Part shown: in pieces, positions 3,993 to 61,824 of the stretch
Position numbering within the stretch: the stretch's first letter is position 1
How the letters are laid out: every line of letters begins with the position of its first letter
Source of the DNA: Pseudomonas sp. Ga0074129
Lineage (GTDB): Bacteria; Pseudomonadota; Gammaproteobacteria; Pseudomonadales; Pseudomonadaceae
Direction: 5' to 3'
DNA length: 64,000 bases
Assembly: GCA_001465025.1 (NCBI GenBank)
Contig: LNDO01000050.1
Coordinates: forward strand, 1-64,000
The notes under the pieces: generated by a model
The model's database searches: none
What the model saw: only the letters and a program-made list of their open reading frames with translations
What the model was told of the DNA's origin: nothing
Program-made: the position numbers and the translations under genes

Positions 3993-4110
3993 CGGGGGCT
4001 ACCTTGAGAGGAGTAAACGAGGCCAGATTTTAGCAGCCTGTGGCATTTAATGCTGGGTGAAAATCGGATCAAACGGCGTATCTGCGGCGCGTGTGCAGGC
4101 AGCACTTGCG

Positions 4111-4116
4111 TATAAT
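4111..4116 (+). promoter_or_regulatory. Candidate -10 box for recQ
   Basis: A perfect TATAAT lies 25 bp before the recQ ATG, in the context TTGCGTATAATGCGC. No good TTGACA-like -35 is visible 16-18 bp upstream, so only the -10 element is supported. Confidence 0.5.
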
Positions 4117-4141
4117 GCGCTGCCTGTTTCGGAGACCCTTC

Positions 4142-6268
4142 ATGCTCGAGCACGCGCAGCGCATCCTCAAAGACGTATTCGGTTACGACAGCTTTCGTGG
4201 TCGTCAGGGTGCCATTATCGAGCGCGTGGCCAATGGCGGTGATGCCTTGGTGCTGATGCCCACTGGCGGCGGCAAGTCGCTGTGCTTCCAAGTGCCGGCA
4301 TTGTTGCGTGAAGGCTTGGCGGTGGTGGTTTCACCGCTGATTGCGTTGATGGATGACCAAGTGGCAACCCTCGACGAACTGGGTGTGGCGGCCGCGGCGC
4401 TGAACTCCACCTTGAGCGCCGACGCGCAGCGCGAGATTGCCGAGCGGATCAAGCGCGGCGAGATCAAGATGCTCTACCTGGCCCCCGAGCGGCTGGTGCA
4501 GCCGCGCATGCTGAGTTTTCTGCAGAATTTGGATATCGCCCTGTTTGCTATCGACGAGGCGCATTGCGTGTCGCAGTGGGGGCATGATTTCCGTCCGGAA
4601 TACTTGCAACTGGGCCAACTGGCTGAGTTGTTCCCCAATGTCCCGCGTATTGCCCTGACCGCCACGGCAGACATGCGCACCCGCGAAGAAATCGTCCAGC
4701 GTTTGCACTTGCAGAATGCCGAACGCTTTCTGTCGAGTTTCGACCGGCCGAATATTTTCTACCGCATCGTACCCAAGGAGCAGCCGCGCAAGCAGTTGCT
4801 GAGCTTTCTCGGTGCGCGCAAAGGTGATGCCGGCATTGTCTATTGCCTCTCGCGCAAGAAAGTTGAAGAAGTGGCGGCGTTTCTCAGTGAGCAAGGTTTC
4901 CCGGCGCTGCCTTACCACGCCGGGTTAGCCAATGAGTTGCGGGCCTATCACCAAAAGCGCTTCCTCAATGAGGAAGGGCTGATCATGGTCGCGACCATCG
5001 CCTTCGGCATGGGCATCGATAAGCCCAACGTCCGTTTTGTGGCTCACCTCGATTTGCCCAAGTCGCTGGAAGCTTACTATCAGGAAACCGGCCGGGCAGG
5101 GCGTGATGGCCTGCCAGCAGATGCTTGGATGGCCTATGGCCTGCAGGATGTGATTTTCCTCAAGCAGATGCTCAACAACTCCGAAGGTGACGAGCGACAC
5201 AAGCGCGTTGAGCAGCACAAACTCGATGCCATGCTGGCGCTGTGCGAGGAAACCCGCTGCCGGCGTCAGGCGTTGCTCGCCTATTTCGACGAAGAGATGC
5301 CGCAGCCCTGCGGGCACTGCGACAACTGCATCGACGGTGTGCAAACCTGGGATGCCACCGAGCCTGCGCGCCAGGCGCTCTCGGCCATTTATCGCACGGG
5401 GCAGCGCTACGGCGTGGGGCATTTGGTGGATGTGCTGCTGGGCCGTGACAACGATAAGATTCGTGCTGTAGGGCATCAACATCTAGCTGTATTCGGTATC
5501 GGCAAGGCCCTGAATGAAGGTGAATGGCGCTCGTTGTTTCGCCAGTTGGTGGCGCGTGGTTTGGCCGACGTCGACCTTGAAGGATTTGGCGGTTTGCGTT
5601 TGGCCGACAGTTGCCGGCCTTTGCTCAAAGGCGAAGTGAGCCTGCAACTGCGCCGCGATCTCAAACCGCAACAAAGCGCCAAAGCCTCCAGCAGCGCCGC
5701 CAGCCAGTTGGTGCGTGGTGAGGAACGCAGCCAGTGGGAAGCGCTGCGCACGCTACGGCGCAAGTTGGCGGAAGAGCATGGGGTGCCGCCTTATGTGATC
5801 TTCCCCGATGCTACCTTGCTGGAAATGCTGCGCAGCAAACCCAGTACCTTGGCAGAGATGGCGCGGGTCAGTGGGGTGGGGGCGCGTAAGCTGGATCGTT
5901 ACGGCGAGGCTTTTCTGGACGTGCTGGGTGCTGCCGATGAAGCGCCGCGTGCTGTCCTTGATTTGCGCCACGAGTTGGTCAGCCTGGCGCGCGCCGGTAT
6001 GACGCCTGCGCAAATAGCCGCACAGCTTAAATGCAGTGAAAAGAATGTCTACGGCATGTTGGCTGAAGCCATCACCCAGCAGCAATTGAGCCTGGAGCAC
6101 GCGCTTGATCTGCCTGAGGCCTTGCTGGCGGAAATTCAGGATGCATTCCTCGATGGCGAGGGCGAACTGCCAACGGCGGCCGCGATTGGTGAGCAGTTTG
6201 CCGGGCGTGTTGAGTTGGGTGTGCTGCATTGCGTGCGTGCCGCGCTGCAGGCGGAATTTGAGACCTGA
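4142..6268 (+). CDS. recQ: RecQ, ATP-dependent DNA helicase
   Basis: A 3'-5' DNA helicase for recombination and replication-fork repair. From the ATG at 4142 (GGAG site upstream) the protein has 708 residues. The order is: Walker A PTGGGKS (40-46), DEAH box [19 protein letters not shown], helicase C domain with [10 protein letters not shown], RecQ-C-terminal zinc-binding cysteines (CEETRCRR, then CGHCDNC), and an HRDC domain near the C-terminus ([20 protein letters not shown]). An in-frame start at 4091 would add 17 residues but has no ribosome-binding site and precedes the TATAAT box, so it was not used. The diguanylate cyclase gene follows in the same direction. Confidence 0.96.
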
Positions 6269-50318: not shown

Positions 50319-50351
50319 GTGTCTGAAAAAGCACTGCTAGGCTGAGCTTAG

Positions 50352-50684
50352 TTCGTAGGTTGGGTTGAGTCGCGAAGTGCCGAAGCCCAACAGCTCATGC
50401 CCAAACCCGTTGGGCTTAGCTACGCTCCGCGCCAACCTGCGGCCTCTGCGGTATTCGTCCGTTATGTGGATATTCGTAGGTTGGGTTGAGACACGCAGCG
50501 CCGAAGCCCAACAGCTCATGCCAAAACCCGTTGGGCTTCGCTGCGCTCAACGCCAACCTACGGCCCCTGCGGCATTCGTCCGCTATATGGATATTCGTAG
50601 GTTGGGTTGAGAAGCGAAGCGCCGAAGCCCAACAGCTCATGCAAAACCCCGTTGGGCTTAGCTACGCATAGCGCTAACCTACGG
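50352..50684. repeat. Three tandem copies of a 121-bp palindromic repeat between rpsA and ihfB
   Basis: Copies begin at 50352, 50473 and 50594 with an exact 121-bp period; the third ends near 50684 without its spacer. Each unit is a nested palindrome: outer CGTAGGTTGG / CCAACCTACG, inner GAAGCCCAAC / GTTGGGCTT. Between the arms of neighbouring units lies a shared spacer with ATTCGTCCG and TGGATATTCG. Units differ from each other by a few bases. Together with the terminator they fill most of the 599-bp gap between rpsA and ihfB; the rest (50685-50871) carries the ihfB upstream region with AAGAAGGG before the ATG. Confidence 0.9.
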
Positions 50685-50871
50685 GTTCTGCAAAAGGCTG
50701 TGGCGCCGCGACTTCCTTACACAGACTGTCGCCATCACTGCCTCTCGCAACCCTTTGATCTTTCTGCAAACGATCAACCAAATCGACACCCTTCGGGCTG
50801 TTCAAATCATGTTCAGCGTGCTAAAAACTAACCACCTAGTGATCTAGCCGCTTGAAAAAGAAGGGAAAACC

Positions 50872-51303: not shown

Positions 51304-51424
51304 ACTGTTAGCGACATGGGTACAGCCCATTCATGCCATATGCTTTTGGCGGCGAATGGATAAGTAAGCCTATAGGTGGTCCGTTGGCAGGCAGTTGCCT
51401 CCTTTTTAAAGATGGATTTTGATC

Positions 51425-52726
51425 GTGAATGCAGCTTCCTCGGCGATGCAACAAGCCTCCAATGATGAAATCGATCTGGCGGCGCTTTTTCAAGCGCTCT
51501 GGGCGCAAAAGTTACTGATTACTCTGGTCACGCTGTCGGTTGGCATGTTGGCGCTGGCGTACGCGTTTCTTACAACCCCTGAGTATCAAGTGCAGAGTGT
51601 AGTGCGGCCTGCGGCGATTAAGGATCTGGACGCACTGAACCGCACAGGTGTCTATGAGCTTACGCCAGAGCAGGCTATGCAGCGTGTAGGCGCGAGCCTG
51701 GATTCTTATGACAGCCGATTGGGTTTTTTTCGCGCCAATCAGGGCCTCTTCGAGGCACTACGTCAGCCTAACCGTAGCCTTGAGCAGACCTTTGAAAACT
51801 TCAATAAACAAGCTTTCAAGATGCTCCAGCCCGACTCGAAAAAAACCGACAACCTCAGCGCCTACGTCGGCGTTCAGCTGACTTATCCGCAGGGTGTCGA
51901 TGGTGTTGCATTGCTTAATGGCTTGGTTGGTTACGTGGTTCAACGCGAGCGCGAGCGCATTGCCGACGACTTTACGGTGGTAATCCAGAATCACCTGGCT
52001 CAGCTGGACTCCAAGATGGCGGCAGCCCGTGCCAGCTATGAAGCCATTAAGGAAGCCAGGATCGCCGAGTTATTGGAGGCCGATAACCTCAAGCGCGCCG
52101 AGTTGCAGGACGAGCTCAAGGCTTTGCGTCAGCAGCTCAAGACGCATCGCGATAATCGTATTGCGCAGTTGGATGAAGCGGTTCGTATCGCTAAGGCTCT
52201 GGACATCCTCAAGCCCACCACACCTTCTGCTTTGGCTGAGGTGGGACGGGTGTCCCAGGGCAGCGTAATCCGTACCGAGGTCAACAATCAGCAAATCCCT
52301 CTGTATTTTATGGGCAGCGAGGCCCTGGAAGCCGAGCGCGCTGCGCTGCGGCAACGTCGTTCGGATGACTTTACCGAGCCGCGTATCGCACAGATCGCCA
52401 AAGAGCTCAAACTGTTAGAAAACAACCGGCAGGTTGAGATACTGAATAAACGCGAAAACCAGGACCTTTTTCTCAAGGACTTGGCCATCTGGCGGGAAGA
52501 GGCAGCCCAGCTGCGCAGCCTTGCAATCGACGCCTCTAACCTGAAGCTGGTTTCCGTCGATCAAGTAGCCATTGAGCCTTTAAGCCCAATAAAGCCCAAG
52601 AAAGCGTTGATTCTGGCTCTTGGGCTGGTGCTTGGCGGCATGCTGGGTCTGTTTATTGCCCTGATACGTCATATGATGCGGCGCGAGCCGGCAGCGCTTA
52701 GCTTGAGCGCAGGTGCAATCAGCTAG
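51425..52726 (+). CDS. wzz: Wzz, O-antigen chain-length determinant protein
   Basis: Inner-membrane polysaccharide co-polymerase setting O-antigen length. With GTG at 51425 (GATGGA upstream) it has 433 residues: cytoplasmic N-terminus with EIDLAALFQALWAQK, membrane helix at about 30-52, a long periplasmic helical region (about 60-395) and a second helix at about 398-418 preceded by the proline-rich PLSPIKPKKALILALGLVLGG. TTG 51419 and ATG 51446 are alternative starts. First gene of the O-antigen cluster and, as in P. aeruginosa, next to ihfB. Confidence 0.9.
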   Translation: MNAASSAMQQASNDEIDLAALFQALWAQKLLITLVTLSVGMLALAYAFLTTPEYQVQSVVRPAAIKDLDALNRTGVYELTPEQAMQRVGASLDSYDSRLGFFRANQGLFEALRQPNRSLEQTFENFNKQAFKMLQPDSKKTDNLSAYVGVQLTYPQGVDGVALLNGLVGYVVQRERERIADDFTVVIQNHLAQLDSKMAAARASYEAIKEARIAELLEADNLKRAELQDELKALRQQLKTHRDNRIAQLDEAVRIAKALDILKPTTPSALAEVGRVSQGSVIRTEVNNQQIPLYFMGSEALEAERAALRQRRSDDFTEPRIAQIAKELKLLENNRQVEILNKRENQDLFLKDLAIWREEAAQLRSLAIDASNLKLVSVDQVAIEPLSPIKPKKALILALGLVLGGMLGLFIALIRHMMRREPAALSLSAGAIS

Positions 52727-54491: not shown

Positions 54492-55613
54492 ATGAAAATT
54501 CTTGTTACCGGCGGTGCTGGTTTTATTGGATCAGCGGTCATACGCCACATCATCGACAGCACCGCTGGTAGCGTGGTCAATCTCGACAAGCTCACCTATG
54601 CCGGCAACCTAGAGTCCCTGCTCGACGTCAGCGACAGTGAGCGGTACGCCTTCGAGCAAGTCGACATCTGCGACAGGGTAGCGCTTCAGAGAGTGTTCCA
54701 AGAGCATCAACCAGATGCCGTGATGCACCTAGCTGCTGAGTCTCACGTAGACCGCTCCATCGATGGCCCTGCCACATTTATTGAAACCAATATCGTTGGT
54801 ACTTACACGCTACTCGAGGCCACGCGTCAGTATTGGCAAGGGCTGGAAACAGCTCGTAAAGCAGCCTTCCGCTTTCATCACATTTCCACCGATGAAGTCT
54901 ATGGCGATCTGGAAGACCCAGAAGCGCTGTTCACCGAAACCACCCCCTACGCTCCCAGTTCACCCTACTCGGCGAGTAAGGCCAGCTCAGACCATTTGGT
55001 GCGTGCGTGGAGTCGTACCTACGGGCTGCCGATGCTGATTACCAACTGCTCAAATAACTATGGCCCGTACCACTTCCCGGAAAAACTCATTCCGCTGATC
55101 ATTCTTAACGCCCTTGAAGGCAAACCGCTGCCGGTCTATGGCAAAGGCAATCAAGTGCGCGACTGGCTGTATGTTGAAGATCATGCTCGTGCCCTATACA
55201 AGGTTGTGACCGAAGGCGTAGTGGGGGAGACCTACAACATTGGTGGCCACAATGAAAAACAGAACATCGAAGTTGTCCACGCCCTTTGCGAGCTGCTCGA
55301 TGAACTCCGGCCGATGCAAACACCAGTAGGAGCGAGCTTGCTCGCGATCAACGATTTAGCTGACGCCCAGATCAAGCATCAGCCAATGCGCTCTTACAAA
55401 GAACTCATCACCCATGTCCAAGACCGCCCCGGCCATGACCTGCGTTACGCCATCGACGCCAGCAAGATCCAGCGCGAACTGAATTGGACGCCTGTCGAAA
55501 CCTTCGAGTCAGGGATTCGCAAGACGGTTGAGTGGTATCTGAGTAACCAAGAGTGGTGCCGCCGCGTGCAAGATGGTAGCTATCAACGTGAGCGTTTGGG
55601 CGCGACAGCATAA
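54492..55613 (+). CDS. rmlB: RmlB, dTDP-glucose 4,6-dehydratase
   Basis: Makes dTDP-4-keto-6-deoxyglucose. The 373-residue SDR has NAD motif [31 protein letters not shown], catalytic [13 protein letters not shown] and YxxxK in [16 protein letters not shown], plus the family end [15 protein letters not shown]. It is 15-20 residues longer than usual: an extra segment at about 277-298 between ELRPM and SYKELITH is encoded by a REP-type palindrome plus flank. The catalytic parts are unaffected. Followed by rmlA (12 bp). Confidence 0.95.
55326..55347. repeat. REP-type palindrome inside rmlB
   Basis: GCGAGCTTGCTCGC, preceded by GTAGGA, is the core of the commonest intergenic REP sequence of fluorescent pseudomonads (recalled). 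Here it is translated in frame as VGASLLAI within RmlB. Confidence 0.85.
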
Positions 55614-55625
55614 AGGAAGCAATAC

Positions 55626-56492
55626 ATGAAAGGCATTCTTCTCGCCGGCGGTTCCGGCACACGGTTGTACCCGATCACTAAAGGTGTGTCCAAGCAACTG
55701 CTGCCCATTTACGACAAACCAATGATCTACTATCCCTTGTCCGTATTAATGTTGGCTGGTATCCGCGACATCCTACTGATAAGCACTCCGGAAGATATAA
55801 GCGGTTATCAGCGCCTACTGGGCGATGGTTCCGATTTTGGGATAACAATCAGCTATGCCGTACAACCCAGCCCGGATGGGCTAGCCCAAGCCTTTATTAT
55901 TGGCGAAGAATTTATTGGCAAGGATAGTGTTTGCTTGGTTCTGGGAGATAACATCTTTTATGGCCAAGGTTTTGGCCCTATGTTGCGCGCAGCCGCAGCT
56001 CGCTGTAAGGGTGCTACCGTATTCGGTTACCAGGTCAAAGACCCAGAGCGCTTCGGTGTGGTTGAGTTTGATGAAAATAAGCGTGCCATATCGATTGAGG
56101 AAAAGCCGCAAAAGCCAAAATCTCACTATGCCGTCACGGGTCTGTATTTCTACGATAATGATGTGGTGCAGATAGCCAAGCAGGTAAAGCCTTCTCATCG
56201 AGGGGAGCTGGAAATCACCTGCATCAACCAAGTCTATATGCAGCGCGGGGATCTTAACGTCGAGTTGCTTGGTCGTGGCTTTGCCTGGCTCGATACAGGT
56301 ACTCACGAAAGCCTGCTTGAGGCGGGTCTTTTCGTCGAAACTATTGAGAAGCGCCAAGGCTACAAAATCGCCTGCCTCGAAGAAATTGCTTTTACCAATG
56401 GCTGGTTAAGCAGCAATGATTTAAAACGCATAGGTCAGTCATTAAGCAAGAACAGTTATGGTCAGTATCTTCTATCCCTTTTGATACAGTAA
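55626..56492 (+). CDS. rmlA: RmlA, glucose-1-phosphate thymidylyltransferase
   Basis: Joins glucose 1-phosphate and dTTP to dTDP-glucose. The 288-residue protein shows the full signature [48 protein letters not shown] and [19 protein letters not shown]. Lies in the order rmlB-rmlA without rmlD or rmlC, as in the rffG-rffH part of the ECA operon. Confidence 0.96.
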
Positions 56493-56503: not shown

Positions 56504-57067
56504 ATGGCATATTTATCCAGAGAAGCTCTTGAGCAAATGGGTTTCAAGAGTCTTGGACTGAATGTTCACATCAGTGATAAAGCCAGTATCTACAATGCTG
56601 ATCAGATTGAGATCGGCGATAACTCTAGAATTGATGATTTTTGCGTGGTATCAGGCAAGGTAAGAATTGGTAAATTTAACCATATTACTCCTATGTGTTT
56701 GATTGCCGGTGGAGAGCCCGGCGTATACTTTGAAGATTTTTGCACCCTAGCTTATGGTGCTAAAGTTTTTTCACAGTCAGACGACTACAGTGGCGAAACA
56801 ATGACTAATTCGCTGGTGGGGAAAAAGTATAAAAAAGAACGGTTCGAAAGTATTTATATTGGTAAGCACGTCATCGTTGGGGCTGGCTCCATTGTATTTC
56901 CCGGTGTCAACCTCGCAGTGGGTTGCTCTGTGGGCGCAATGTCATTGGTCATCCGTAGTACCGATCCATGGGGGATCTATGTTGGAAGTCCCGCACGAAG
57001 GGTAAACGAGCGTAAAAAAGATTTGCTTGAACTTGAGCCTAAATTTTTAGAAGATTTCTACAAATGA
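56504..57067 (+). CDS. Left-handed beta-helix (hexapeptide) acyltransferase
   Basis: A 187-residue trimeric O- or N-acyltransferase by fold: repeated hexapeptides such as IEIGDNSRIDDFCVVSG and IGKHVIVGAGSIVFPGVNLAVGCSVGAM, with the conserved nearby IRSTDPWGIYVGSPARRV. It sits between rmlA and wecE and overlaps wecE (ATGA). In the enterobacterial common antigen operon this place is held by the GNAT enzyme WecD, which acetylates dTDP-Fuc4N, so this protein most likely makes dTDP-Fuc4NAc (or another N-acyl form) by a different fold; inference only. Confidence 0.85.
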   Translation: MAYLSREALEQMGFKSLGLNVHISDKASIYNADQIEIGDNSRIDDFCVVSGKVRIGKFNHITPMCLIAGGEPGVYFEDFCTLAYGAKVFSQSDDYSGETMTNSLVGKKYKKERFESIYIGKHVIVGAGSIVFPGVNLAVGCSVGAMSLVIRSTDPWGIYVGSPARRVNERKKDLLELEPKFLEDFYK

Positions 57068-58194
57068 TCCCATTTAACAAGCCGCCCTATACCGGTAACG
57101 AAGATCAATATGTAATGTCTGCCATGCGCAGCAGCAAAATATCTGGCGACGGCCAGTTTACTCAGCTTTGCCATGAGTGGTTTGAAAAGAATACGGGCAC
57201 CAAGAAAGCACTATTAACACCATCATGTACTCAAGCGCTGGAGATGGCTGCAATCCTGCTAGATATTCAGCCCGGCGATGAAGTTATTATGCCGAGTTAC
57301 ACCTTTGTCAGCACCGCTAATGCTTTTGTTCTGCGCGGTGCAAAGATTGTTTTTGTCGATATCCGTCCAGATACAATGAATATCGATGAGAATCTAATTG
57401 AAGCCGCCATCACGCCCAAAACCAGAGCTATCGTGCCCGTCCATTATGCTGGTGTTGCCTGCGAAATGGACACCATCATGGCCATCGCAGATAAGCACCA
57501 ATTGTTTGTGATTGAAGATGCTGCACAAGGAATGATGGCCACTTACAAGGGCCGCGCGCTCGGCAGCATCGGGCATATGGGGGCCTATAGCTTCCATGAA
57601 ACCAAGAACTACACCAGCGGTGGTGAAGGTGGCGTGCTGCTGATTAACGATGAACGCTTCACTGCTAGAGCCGAAATTATCAGAGAGAAAGGCACGAATC
57701 GCAGCCAGTTTTTTAGGGGTATGGTCGATAAATATACTTGGGTAGATATTGGAAGCAGTTACTTACCTTCAGAGTTACAGGCAGCCTATCTCTATGGACA
57801 ACTTGAATGCGCAGAGGAGATAAATATCAATCGTCGAGCAACATGGGGGGCTTACATAAATGCCTTCTCCACTCTCACTGATAAGATAGCAACGCCTTAC
57901 ATTCCTTCTGGTTGTCAGCATAATGCACATATGTTTTACCTGAAACTTTCTGGTCTTGAGAGTCGAACCAAGTTCCTTGAGGTGATGAAAAATGAGTCGA
58001 TAATGGCTGTGTTTCATTATGTACCGTTGCACTCGTCAATCGCAGGCAAGAAGCTTGGCATATTTTCAGGCGCTGACAACTTTACCACTAAAGAAAGTGA
58101 GCGCCTTGTACGGTTACCACTTTGGTACGGTTTAAGCGAACAGGATGTAACTCGTGTTTTAGACGTTGTGTCTAATGCTATTGCATGCAATTAA
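57064..58194 (+). CDS. wecE: WecE, dTDP-4-amino-4,6-dideoxygalactose transaminase
   Basis: PLP aminotransferase that turns dTDP-4-keto-6-deoxyglucose into dTDP-Fuc4N. The 376-residue protein is close to E. coli WecE through its length: start MIPFNKPPYTGNEDQY, DIQPGDEVIMPSYTFVSTAN, PVHYAGVACEMDTIMAIA, PLP-binding Lys in FHETKNYTSGGEGG, and EKGTNRSQFFRGMVDKYTW. Base composition falls along the gene and becomes AT-rich. It is followed directly by a WzxE-like flippase, the same order as in the ECA operon. Confidence 0.93.
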   Translation: MIPFNKPPYTGNEDQYVMSAMRSSKISGDGQFTQLCHEWFEKNTGTKKALLTPSCTQALEMAAILLDIQPGDEVIMPSYTFVSTANAFVLRGAKIVFVDIRPDTMNIDENLIEAAITPKTRAIVPVHYAGVACEMDTIMAIADKHQLFVIEDAAQGMMATYKGRALGSIGHMGAYSFHETKNYTSGGEGGVLLINDERFTARAEIIREKGTNRSQFFRGMVDKYTWVDIGSSYLPSELQAAYLYGQLECAEEININRRATWGAYINAFSTLTDKIATPYIPSGCQHNAHMFYLKLSGLESRTKFLEVMKNESIMAVFHYVPLHSSIAGKKLGIFSGADNFTTKESERLVRLPLWYGLSEQDVTRVLDVVSNAIACN

Positions 58195-58200
58195 TTTCAT

Positions 58201-59448
58201 ATGAGCGCTATTTACAGTGTTTTATTAACAGGCTCTGCCCATCTTTCAAAGATATTGGTGGGCTTTGTTCTTTTAAAATTAATTGCCCTCTATTTGGGCG
58301 CTGAGGGGGTTGGGGTTTTAGGGCATTTCATGAGTGCAGTAACTATTGTTACCCTGCTCGCAGGGGGGGGGGTTGTTAATGGTGTTATAAAATACGTGGC
58401 GGAATATCGGGGTGAGCCACGGAAAATGCTATTATTTATATCTTCTGCGGCTTTTTATTCACTAGCTTTTTGCGTAATAGTATTAGCTTTAGGTGTTTTT
58501 TTTTCAAAGAGCATATCAGTATTTTTATTTCGGTCCGAAGATTTTTACTGGGTTGTTATGCTACTGGCAGTCGCACAGCTAGGATTTGCGTTTACCAACT
58601 TAGTCACAGGGGTCTGTAATGGACTAGGAGATACTAAGGGTTTTGCAATAATACAAATAATTGGCAATCTCTTGGCGCTTCCGCTAGCTTGGTTTTTGAT
58701 TTTTCACTATGAAATTGCTGGTGCTGCAATAGCAATAATAGCGGTTTTTTTTATGGGCGTTTTCCCTGGGTTTTATTTTTACTTTAAGTCTTCATTTTTT
58801 GGTCGAGTAAAATTTAGTGTAGTGACCAGGGTTGAGTTAAAGAAACTTTCTGCATTTACTGTCATGTTATTGGCTAGTGCTTTAACTTTTCCTTTAGTGG
58901 AAATGGTAGTGAGAGAATTTCTGATACATAACGGCGGGTATGCTGAGGCAGGTCTCTGGCAGGCTTCTATTAGATTATCTGCTGCATATCTTGGGTTTTT
59001 TGGTGTGTTTTTGGCGTATTATTTTATGCCTCTTATTTCGCCTATAGCTGATAAGAAAGTAATTGGTCAGTATGTGCGCAAATTCATGCTGCTAGTTATG
59101 GTTATATTTTTGATAGGTGCTTCGGTTTTTTATGTGGGGCGCAGTTTTTTTATTCCGGCATTATTGTCGAGTGATTTTTCTCGGCTTGAAGATTTGATAG
59201 TTTTCCAGTTGATTGGTGATTTTTTTAAGATATCTAGTTACGTTATAGGGTTTGTTGGTGTAGCTAAGGCAGCAACAAAGCTTTATGTAAGTGCAGAGCT
59301 TTTACAAGGGCTGTTGTTTTTAGGGGTGGCCTTACTGATTGGTAGCTTGTTGGGCGGTATCAAAGGAGTTCTTATCGGCTATATGCTGACCTATGTCATC
59401 TATTTTGTTTTGTGTACTTGTGCTTTCGTATTCTGGGCTCGGAGATAA
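58201..59448 (+). CDS. wzx: WzxE-like lipid-linked oligosaccharide flippase
   Basis: A 415-residue membrane protein with about 12 helices (MATE/MOP superfamily). It resembles E. coli WzxE at the start (LLKLIALYLGAEGVGVLGHF; GGVVNGVIKYVAEY) and at the end (FQLIGDFFKISSYVIGFVGVAKA). Moves the undecaprenyl-linked O-unit to the periplasm. Residues 55-57 (GGG) are encoded inside a run of ten G (58363-58372) in an otherwise AT-rich gene. One G more gives a stop within 3 codons after the run, one less within about 6, so the tract could switch the gene off. Confidence 0.9.
   Translation: MSAIYSVLLTGSAHLSKILVGFVLLKLIALYLGAEGVGVLGHFMSAVTIVTLLAGGGVVNGVIKYVAEYRGEPRKMLLFISSAAFYSLAFCVIVLALGVFFSKSISVFLFRSEDFYWVVMLLAVAQLGFAFTNLVTGVCNGLGDTKGFAIIQIIGNLLALPLAWFLIFHYEIAGAAIAIIAVFFMGVFPGFYFYFKSSFFGRVKFSVVTRVELKKLSAFTVMLLASALTFPLVEMVVREFLIHNGGYAEAGLWQASIRLSAAYLGFFGVFLAYYFMPLISPIADKKVIGQYVRKFMLLVMVIFLIGASVFYVGRSFFIPALLSSDFSRLEDLIVFQLIGDFFKISSYVIGFVGVAKAATKLYVSAELLQGLLFLGVALLIGSLLGGIKGVLIGYMLTYVIYFVLCTCAFVFWARR
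58363..58372 (+). repeat. Homopolymer of ten G in wzx
   Basis: Ten consecutive G, encoding three glycines plus the first base of the next valine codon. With 11 G the frame reads GGT TGT TAA; with 9 G it reads TTG TTA ATG GTG TTA TAA. Both are early stops, near residue 60 of 415. Confidence 0.95.
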
Positions 59449-59478: not shown

Positions 59479-60585
59479 ATGATCATGTTGCCAATTTATT
59501 TGAGTTTTATTGTTGTCTCTATACTCTGTGCATTTGAGCATTTTAGCAATGGGCGCTCTTACAAGATTATATACTACTGGATTGTTATGTTTTTTCTTGT
59601 GCTTCTGGCCTCATTTAGAAGTATTGGTGTTGGGAGCGATGATCAGGCATATATGTTTATATTTCATGGTATTCCCTCGCTTCTAGAATGCGAGAGTTTT
59701 TTGTGTGGCTACAGTTACTCGATTTATAATATAGAATTTGGTTTTTTTTGGTTTTTATCTCTGTTGTTAGTTTTTAGTTCTTCGCAGTATTGGCTATTTT
59801 TTTCTGTAGCTTTTGCATCGGTTTGTTTTAATCTCAAAAGTATTCGATATTTTTCCCCTTATGCTGGGGCTTCTGTAGTGGTGTATTTCACTCACTTTTT
59901 CTTGGCAAAAGAGCTGAATGCTATCCGTCTTGGGCTGGCTACAGCTATTCTTTTTTATGCCGCATGTTTTTTAACTAAATGTCGTTATTCAATGATGTTT
60001 TTCTTGTTCGCTATAGCGGTCTCGTTGCATGTTTCGTCAATAATTTTTTTGATGCCCGTAGTCGTTTACTTACTTTCGCCAAACAGATCAGTTTTTGTTT
60101 TTGCGGGGATTACTTCTTTATTGCTCGCTTGGCTTTTCGATTTGGGTTTATTATTTAATTCACTTGCAGGTTTTGGCTTTATTGGTGAAAAAATAAGTCT
60201 TTATTTGAGCGCTGAAGAATATAACTATGCATTGCCTATATTTGATGTTGTAAATATTAAAAACTTGCTGGTATGTTCTATTTCGTTGTTGTTTTGGAAT
60301 CAACTTTTATCTCGATATGACTGGTTCAAGATTTCGTTTTGTTTTTTTTATAGTGCGACAATGTTTCGGATTTTATTCGGTGATTTTGCTATTCTTGCAG
60401 GGCGTGGATATTCCGTAATCTCAATGTTTGAATATGTTCTTATTCCTTGCCTTGCTTGTTTTTTTCTTGGGCGTGGGTTGGGGTATATAGTTGTTTTTAT
60501 ATATTCGTTTCTAACTCTTTGGCTTAATCTGACAATTAATGCTGGCTGGAGTGGCGGAGTAAATTATTTCCATGATTTTCTTTAA
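59479..60585 (+). CDS. wzy: EpsG/Wzy-type O-antigen polymerase
   Basis: A 368-residue membrane protein with about ten to twelve hydrophobic helices. The segment LASFRSIGVGSDDQAYMFIF is the EpsG-family hallmark (R-x-x-G-x-D-x-x-x-Y). By position between flippase and glycosyltransferases it is the O-unit polymerase; Wzy sequences are very diverse, so the specific linkage cannot be named. Very AT-rich with long T runs. Confidence 0.82.
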   Translation: MIMLPIYLSFIVVSILCAFEHFSNGRSYKIIYYWIVMFFLVLLASFRSIGVGSDDQAYMFIFHGIPSLLECESFLCGYSYSIYNIEFGFFWFLSLLLVFSSSQYWLFFSVAFASVCFNLKSIRYFSPYAGASVVVYFTHFFLAKELNAIRLGLATAILFYAACFLTKCRYSMMFFLFAIAVSLHVSSIIFLMPVVVYLLSPNRSVFVFAGITSLLLAWLFDLGLLFNSLAGFGFIGEKISLYLSAEEYNYALPIFDVVNIKNLLVCSISLLFWNQLLSRYDWFKISFCFFYSATMFRILFGDFAILAGRGYSVISMFEYVLIPCLACFFLGRGLGYIVVFIYSFLTLWLNLTINAGWSGGVNYFHDFL

Positions 60586-60603: not shown

Positions 60604-61824
60604 GTGAAGAAAGTTTTATTTGTTCTTGGTGGTTTGCATATGGGGGGGGTCGAGACCTATATTGTTCGGTTGGCTAAAGAGCTTAATGCGTGTGGCTGCG
60701 AGGTCGATGTTTTAATAATCTCAAAGCAATATGATAGTGGTTTGATTTCTGAAATTTCTAAGTTTACAAATATATTTATCCATGAAAATGCGTCTTTTTT
60801 AAAGGCTTCAAGCTGGATTAATGCTTTTCTTCCTTTGAAATGGGAGGGTGAAAGAGCGTGCTATGACGTGGTTCATGTTGTTGATCTTCTAACGCTTGGA
60901 TTTGTTTTTTTAAATAGAAATGTTATTAAATTTAAGGCTCTTAGTATTGGTATTTACCACTCAATGGAGATGTATTGGTGGCGTAACAAAGGGGCTTATT
61001 TTAGGTCTAAGCTGCTTGAGTTATATGATAGCAATGTTAGCTTGACTCTTTTTCCTAGTGAGAGTGTTGCGATAATGGCCTCTGAGTTGACGGGGGTTGC
61101 TATAGATGATATGGATATTTTGCCTTTAGGTATTGAGCTTTCTAAATATAGTAATTGTGCTCCGTCCTTTAGCTCTAGAAAAATTGTTTCTGTTGGTAGA
61201 TTGGTTGATTTTAAAGTTTATAATCGCCATTTAATTTCTCAACTTTCAGAGCTTCGTAAGCTTGCGGAATTTGAATACTATATTTATGGCGAGGGGCCTG
61301 AGCTAGATGCTCTCCAGAAGCATGCAGTCGAGTGTGATGTTGATAGATATGTGCACTTTATGGGTGGTGTTAAGTATAAGGATTTACCGAGTGTACTAGA
61401 TGGTATATTTTGTTTTGTTGGTTCAGGCACTACTATCATCGAAGCCTCTGCTGCTGGAGTCCCTTCGCTTGTGGGTATTGAATCGATTAAACAACCGTTG
61501 ACGTGTGGTTTATTTTCTGATGTGGAAGGTTATTCTTATAATGAAGAATCAGCAACAACTAGGAGGTTGTCGTTTGTTGATGCCGTAAATGAGATTTATC
61601 AATTGAATGAGTCCGAATATGCTTATTTAGCAAGGTGTCACCGCACAAAGTCATCTTGTTTCGATATTAAGATTACAGCAGTGGAGTTCTTGAAGAAGTC
61701 GAATAAGCTACCTAATTTTAGTTTTAAATTTAATAGATGGTTGGCGATTCTTTCGTTTGTTTATTCTGTTTTCCGTTTTGGCCCTAGGGCGCTTAAGTCA
61801 AGATTCGAGAGTGGGAAAGATTAG
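60604..61824 (+). CDS. Glycosyltransferase family 4 (GT-B)
   Basis: A 406-residue glycosyltransferase: N-terminal KKVLFVLGGLHMGGVETYIV, C-terminal domain with SRKIVSVGRLVDFK, YIYGEGPELDALQKHA and IIEASAAGVPSLVG (EX7E-like). GTG start at 60604. A run of eight G (60642-60649) lies at codons 13-16; gain or loss of one G ends the frame within about 10 or 25 codons. The sugar cannot be named; in the ECA operon the Fuc4NAc transferase WecF lies here, but this protein does not look like WecF. Confidence 0.85.
   Translation: MKKVLFVLGGLHMGGVETYIVRLAKELNACGCEVDVLIISKQYDSGLISEISKFTNIFIHENASFLKASSWINAFLPLKWEGERACYDVVHVVDLLTLGFVFLNRNVIKFKALSIGIYHSMEMYWWRNKGAYFRSKLLELYDSNVSLTLFPSESVAIMASELTGVAIDDMDILPLGIELSKYSNCAPSFSSRKIVSVGRLVDFKVYNRHLISQLSELRKLAEFEYYIYGEGPELDALQKHAVECDVDRYVHFMGGVKYKDLPSVLDGIFCFVGSGTTIIEASAAGVPSLVGIESIKQPLTCGLFSDVEGYSYNEESATTRRLSFVDAVNEIYQLNESEYAYLARCHRTKSSCFDIKITAVEFLKKSNKLPNFSFKFNRWLAILSFVYSVFRFGPRALKSRFESGKD
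60642..60649 (+). repeat. Homopolymer of eight G near the start of a glycosyltransferase gene
   Basis: Eight G in an AT-rich gene, reading ATG GGG GGG GTC. It is shorter than the run in wzx and thus less prone to slippage. Confidence 0.85.

Follow-up and report, generated by a model that had tools for sequence, protein, structure and literature searches.

A ten-guanine tract over a near-invariant glycine triplet is a likely mutation hot spot in a predicted O-antigen flippase gene of Pseudomonas

We analyzed a run of ten consecutive guanines in wzx, a predicted O-antigen flippase gene, within a 64,000-nucleotide stretch of the draft genome of Pseudomonas sp. Ga0074129 (the window). Our results indicate that the tract is probably a mutation hot spot seated on the codons of near-invariant glycines, not an evolved switch, and that slips within it would give rise to reversible O-antigen-loss variants. 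An earlier note on this DNA had put the tract forward as a candidate on/off phase switch for O-antigen export and had argued that the AT-rich surroundings made a chance occurrence unlikely. As described below, its reading of the gene and of the reading frames held, while neither the evolved switch nor the argument from chance was supported.

The wzx gene lies at 58201..59448 on the forward strand and encodes a predicted Wzx/PST-family O-unit flippase of 415 amino acids. Its product matched PF01943 (Polysacc_synt) across residues 7-280 with 35.6 bits against a cut-off of 28.2, and residues 7-415 aligned with residues 8-416 of the solved E. coli WzxE (E 1.9e-52). The score against the WzxE equivalog NF011679 was 242.3 bits, below the curated cut-off of 325, and by sequence the product is WzxE-like, not WzxE, the ECA lipid III flippase. 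Across the genome, wzx was the sole PF01943 match over the cut-off, with one other match below it. Because of this homology, the single match over the cut-off and the cluster neighbors described next, an O-antigen flippase role for wzx is a sound prediction, and no spare Wzx copy is evident in the genome.

The gene is embedded in a putative O-antigen cluster that also includes wzz and wzy, genes for sugar nucleotides, a wbpM-like gene and the gene of an initiating transferase. Upstream on the same strand lie a gene for a wzz-like O-chain length regulator (51419..52726; PF02706, 47.3 bits), rmlB (54492-55613) and rmlA (55626-56492) for dTDP-sugar supply, a hexapeptide acetyltransferase gene with a probable role in sugar N-acetylation (56504..57067), and a gene for a wecE-like dTDP-4-amino-4,6-dideoxy sugar transaminase (57064..58194; TIGR02379, 674 bits). 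Downstream, again on the forward strand, are a candidate wzy-like gene of the EpsG family (59479..60585; PF14897) and glycosyltransferase genes, the first of which is gt1 (60604..61824; PF13439 and PF00534). Past the window, the same contig carries FnlA-like and WecB-like sugar enzymes, a PF00953 protein that is the putative initiating sugar-phosphate transferase (4077-5111 of locus L164) and a 703-amino-acid PF02719 protein, probably of the WbpM type (5823-7934 of L164). The genes preceding wzz resemble rpsA and ihfB by eye, a setting that is usual for the O-specific antigen cluster in Pseudomonas. GC content in the cluster is 36-40%, and the strand shown has a strong skew of G over C between 58 and 62 kb. 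Separately, overlapping short ORFs at 50337-50831 encode near-identical peptides on both strands, which suggests a repeated intergenic element.

Direct reading placed exactly ten G at 58363..58372 on the forward strand, with an A on the 5' side and a T on the 3' side. They make up wzx codons 55-57 (GGG GGG GGG) and supply the initial G of codon 58 (GTT), and at this length the frame is open for all 415 amino acids. Frame translation indicated that gain of one G yields a product of 59 amino acids ending in AGGGGC, and loss of one G a product of 62 amino acids ending in AGGGLLMVL; a change of three keeps the frame and leaves two glycines upon loss or four upon gain. Like a contingency locus, the tract is thus a long coding repeat in which a one-base slip, whether gain or loss, soon runs into a stop. 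It also has the features of a homopolymer hot spot, namely a run of at least 7 in a polysaccharide gene that a single slip inactivates, here by predicted truncation. The position of the ten G at codons 55-57 and the truncation of Wzx near residue 60 by either single slip, both claimed previously, were confirmed, and a run of ten falls in the slip-prone range, which begins at 7 in P. aeruginosa (PMC4702332).

Two other features of the local sequence were noted. A predicted RNA fold of 58351-58373 pairs the G tract with the C-rich stretch directly upstream, and a CCCTGC / GCAGGG inverted repeat, found by eye, runs into the tract and might influence slippage. A G-quadruplex drawing on the G runs just upstream at 58305, 58312 and 58321 was considered and rejected: permitting G-quadruplexes in the folding changed neither the minimum energy nor the structure.

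The amino acids encoded by the tract are near-invariant. In an alignment of the window's Wzx with 120 listed of the 205 relatives found (n = 121), glycine occupied residues 55, 56 and 57 in 120, 121 and 121 of the 121 proteins, respectively, and none of the 120 listed relatives was shorter than 392 amino acids. The protein sequence fixes seven of the ten letters of the tract. In E. coli WzxE, the residues aligned to Gly55-57 are A54-G55-A56-G57 in transmembrane segment 2, a stretch described as a small disordered loop for which earlier studies had suggested functional importance (PMC11706664).

To gauge how readily such a run arises, we used as the null model a shuffle of synonymous codons, which respects the protein, and set aside a window-wide dinucleotide shuffle. 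GGG accounts for 30% of the remaining glycine codons in the window's wzx. Of 1000 shuffles, 3.4% had a run of at least 10 at the motif, and of 300 shuffles, ~6% had a G/C run of at least 10 anywhere in the gene. Runs of at least 10 are also ordinary in the genus, being present in 138 of 149 genomes (source genome included). Because of the glycine constraint, the GGG usage, the shuffle rates and the commonness of such runs in the genus, AT-rich surroundings are a misleading null model for this tract, and the claim that chance was an unlikely source was not supported; the tract appears to exceed chance only modestly. The draft genome (4,017,355 bases in 124 contigs) contains 14 G/C runs of at least 8, ten of length 8, three of 9 and one of 10. 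The wzx tract is the longest of these, and a single run of 10 is expected from a tail of 10, 3 and 1. A G9 run elsewhere in the genome (locus L058, near 166547 of contig C79) encodes Gly-Gly-Gly in a frame that is open across the 3-kb locus (1002 codons); none of the genome's other G9 runs was located in a long frame.

We then compared the motif among related genes. Searches covering 117 loci gave 115 matches; 35 were duplicate genes, leaving 80 distinct genes, and the three glycines were present in 39 of them. Strong relatives, defined by a bit score of at least 340, numbered 27: the window's gene and 26 others at 45-55% identity. All 27 keep the glycines, and there were zero genes above 340 bits without them. 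The G run at the motif was 2 bases long in five genes, 3 in six, 4 in two, 5 in seven, 6 in three, 8 in two, 9 in one and 10 in one; the run of ten was absent from the 26 genes other than the window's, where lengths were 2-9. Runs of at least 8 at the motif were observed in 4 of the 27 genes versus 2.2 expected from synonymous shuffles (Poisson P 0.18), and runs of at least 10 in 1 of 27 versus 0.29 expected, with a chance of ~0.25 of seeing at least one. In this comparison, made only with relatives of 45-55% identity, the G run shows neither conservation nor a clear excess. Contingency loci are expected to keep the run in orthologues, and among the 26 relatives of 45-55% identity it was not kept. 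The earlier note had named conserved non-repetitive coding of these glycines in close relatives as grounds for refuting a switch. This was borne out in part, in that most of the 27 genes encode the same glycines without a long run, though these relatives are at most ~55% identical.

Proteins with 62-83% identity to Wzx exist, mostly on short contigs, and have the same motif. A search of the genus with one of the relatives (protein P0007) as query, over largely the same genomes, found no closer wzx DNA. We saw no OFF alleles among wzx matches of at least 45% identity, drawn from one assembly per species, which makes for a weak test: they span at least residues 7-410 of the query and have no internal stop. 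Viral contigs held no relative of the window's wzx, and matches in the plasmid collection (22 records) were all below 60% identity to it. The ten plasmid matches listed were enterobacterial, ~30% identical and wzxE where annotated.

Could the tract nonetheless be an evolved contingency locus, in which phage, tailocin or host selection keeps the ten G for high-frequency switching of O-antigen export? We consider this possible but unlikely. In its favor, the tract is the genome's longest G/C run and comes early in wzx (codon 55 of 415), where a shift into either of the other frames meets a stop at once. A second G run, of eight (60642..60649, forward strand), is found in gt1, the next-but-one gene, where it reads ATG GGG GGG GTC and encodes Met-Gly-Gly-Val near the N terminus; it is one of the genome's 14 G/C runs of at least 8. 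Together, wzx, wzy and gt1 hold two G runs of at least 8 versus 0.25 expected (P 0.014, for a gene set chosen post hoc), and a set of seven cluster genes holds two versus 0.28 expected (P 0.027). A/T runs of at least 8 showed no excess over synonymous shuffles (4 versus 3.0). A T9 run at 58496..58504 in wzx is a second predicted slip site, and T8 runs at 58745..58752 in wzx and at 59742-59749 and 60342-60349 in the wzy-like gene, all on the forward strand, are predicted slip sites as well.

Codon usage and the location of other runs point the same way as these cluster counts. Across the 27 genes, 31 of the 81 motif glycines were encoded by GGG, compared with 235 of 851 glycines elsewhere. A sample of long runs from 30 genus genomes, one run each, included 12 in frames of at least 200 amino acids; two beside unknown bases were excluded and ten were scanned for Pfam domains. 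A domain was found in seven of the ten, and the run preceded it in six and touched its first match residue in one (locus L114). Placement deep within a conserved domain, which the wzx tract shows, is uncommon among the few runs sampled and marks the locus as notable. Finally, the P. wadenswilerensis wzx (locus L034) has an independent G11 off the glycine motif, at codon 302 of the aligned gene, in frame and encoding Gly-Gly-Gly; the window's Wzx has no glycine triplet at that site. With this gene, G/C runs of at least 10 anywhere in the 27 wzx genes number two versus 0.36 expected (P 0.058). If either tract was recruited, the P. wadenswilerensis G11 may be the stronger candidate, ahead of the G10 of the window.

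Against an evolved locus stand the absence of a G10 from the motif of the 26 other wzx genes and the number of motif runs of at least 8, which was not clearly above expectation. The near-invariant glycines also argue that just one tract length is likely to be ON, because only ten G keep exactly three glycines. Undecaprenyl phosphate can become sequestered when a flippase is lost, and inactivation of wzx in P. aeruginosa is reported to select for suppressors that prevent O-antigen expression (reviewed in PMC12826051), a poor basis for a reversible switch. The single ten-G length that keeps the three glycines and the reported suppressors both disfavor a dedicated switch. A broader version of the idea would have Pseudomonas Wzx proteins repeatedly gain poly-G contingency tracts: in the window the tract would occupy a Gly-Gly-Gly hinge in transmembrane segment 2, with one length ON and each single slip producing a rough, phage-resistant cell, and the P. 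wadenswilerensis G11 would be a sister case. We regard this version as rather unlikely.

The preferred reading, of a hot spot on near-invariant glycines, would work as follows. The tract would have originated through use of GGG codons for a fixed Gly-Gly-Gly in a low-GC, G-skewed cluster. DNA polymerase slippage would add or remove one G at ~10^-4 to 10^-3 per generation, as estimated from P. aeruginosa data, and the slipped Wzx would stop after residue 59 or 62, which the WzxE alignment places in transmembrane segment 2. O-unit flipping would then stop, giving a rough cell that would be resistant to O-antigen-dependent phages or tailocins, and the reading frame would be regained through a further slip. 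OFF cells are likely to be unfit or to gain second mutations, because lipid-linked O-units would pile up.

Rates measured in P. aeruginosa, together with the homopolymers of P. aeruginosa wzy, A. baumannii wzx and V. cholerae manA described below, make hypermutability of the tract likely. In mismatch-repair-deficient P. aeruginosa, G:C homopolymers slip more than A:T homopolymers, each 9-bp homopolymer accumulates ~0.13 mutations per generation, and rates level off at 7 bp and above; overall, mismatch repair removes 99.6% of pre-mutations, and a single homopolymer indel was observed in wild-type lines (PMC4702332). Combining the 0.13 and 99.6% figures, we estimate that the slip rate with repair on may be ~5e-4 per generation. 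The source genome has mutS and mutL, both full length, so lower slip rates than in repair-deficient cells are expected.

Intact mutS and mutL also fit an inert coding coincidence, in which GGG codons fall on a fixed glycine triplet and mismatch repair keeps slippage biologically inconsequential. The shuffle probability at the motif and the presence of comparable runs in most genus genomes agree with such a coincidence. P. aeruginosa PAO1, however, is repair-proficient. A slip in the T7 tract of wzy is listed for 10 of the 12 PAO1 mutants obtained by selection with the CK4 cocktail or with phage DEV (PMC10714927), and the 9-bp rate in repair-deficient cells, with its plateau from 7 bp, likewise speaks against inconsequential slippage. 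We judge an inert coincidence improbable. Consensus sequences commonly err in the length of homopolymers, and this is a draft genome, but an assembly error that conceals a run length other than ten is very improbable, since ten G give an intact frame and the exact glycines of 120 of the 121 proteins, 9 or 11 G would break wzx, and 7 or 13 G would alter the near-invariant motif.

Several known systems resemble the predicted behavior of the tract. Like the wzx G10, the PAO1 wzy T7 is a homopolymer in a Pseudomonas O-antigen assembly gene, and single-base slips inactivate wzy; its authors attributed frequent phage resistance in PAO1 mainly to indels in homopolymeric stretches (PMC10714927). The two differ in gene and in tract, and slips have been observed in the wzy T7 (PMC10714927), whereas those in the wzx G10 are only predicted. 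A closer match by gene is A. baumannii 17978, in which a slip from T9 to T10 in wzx accompanied escape from phage: as predicted here, a homopolymer slip in a Wzx flippase gene causes a frameshift and a premature stop (PMC10249906). Loss of capsule was expected in that mutant. The A. baumannii protein is, in contrast, a capsule flippase, the T tract lies at nucleotide 377, and the slip was found in 1 of 3 selected mutants (PMC10249906).

In V. cholerae O1, wbeL (A8) and manA (A9) each carry, like the wzx G10, an early homopolymer in an O-antigen gene in which a single slip truncates the product, which in the case of wbeL has 42 of 471 amino acids (PMC3441752). The wbeL tract was conserved in 37 of 37 strains and manA had an OFF length in 2 of 37; reversal was shown for manA, not for wbeL (PMC3441752). 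Unlike the wzx G10, these are A tracts for which phase variation was shown experimentally (PMC3441752), and the G10 is not conserved across related species. Phase variation in LPS and pilus genes was held responsible for phage-resistant variants of P. aeruginosa and was named as a chief origin of receptor mutations in Pseudomonas (the authors' earlier work, as cited in PMC6467409). The wzx G10 also shares a long poly-G tract in a surface-polysaccharide gene with Neisseria and Campylobacter, and differs in that it overlaps a near-invariant protein motif. In those genera, long poly-G tracts in surface-polysaccharide genes set the ON or OFF state by reading frame, and tract lengths vary between isolates. 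Among the matches listed in searches of open-licence literature, we found no description of a G-tract phase-variable wzx in Pseudomonas.

On our best reading, the wzx G10 would be a new example of an O-antigen gene with a homopolymer hot spot; an evolved contingency locus is a possibility. Poly-G runs need to be tested against protein constraint, as a glycine triplet combined with GGG use mimics a "phase switch" at a per-gene frequency that can reach a few percent. If the tract slips as predicted, rough phage-resistant variants would arise mostly by one predictable, reversible mutation, and this would matter for the reading of phage- and tailocin-resistance experiments and for O-typing from assemblies.
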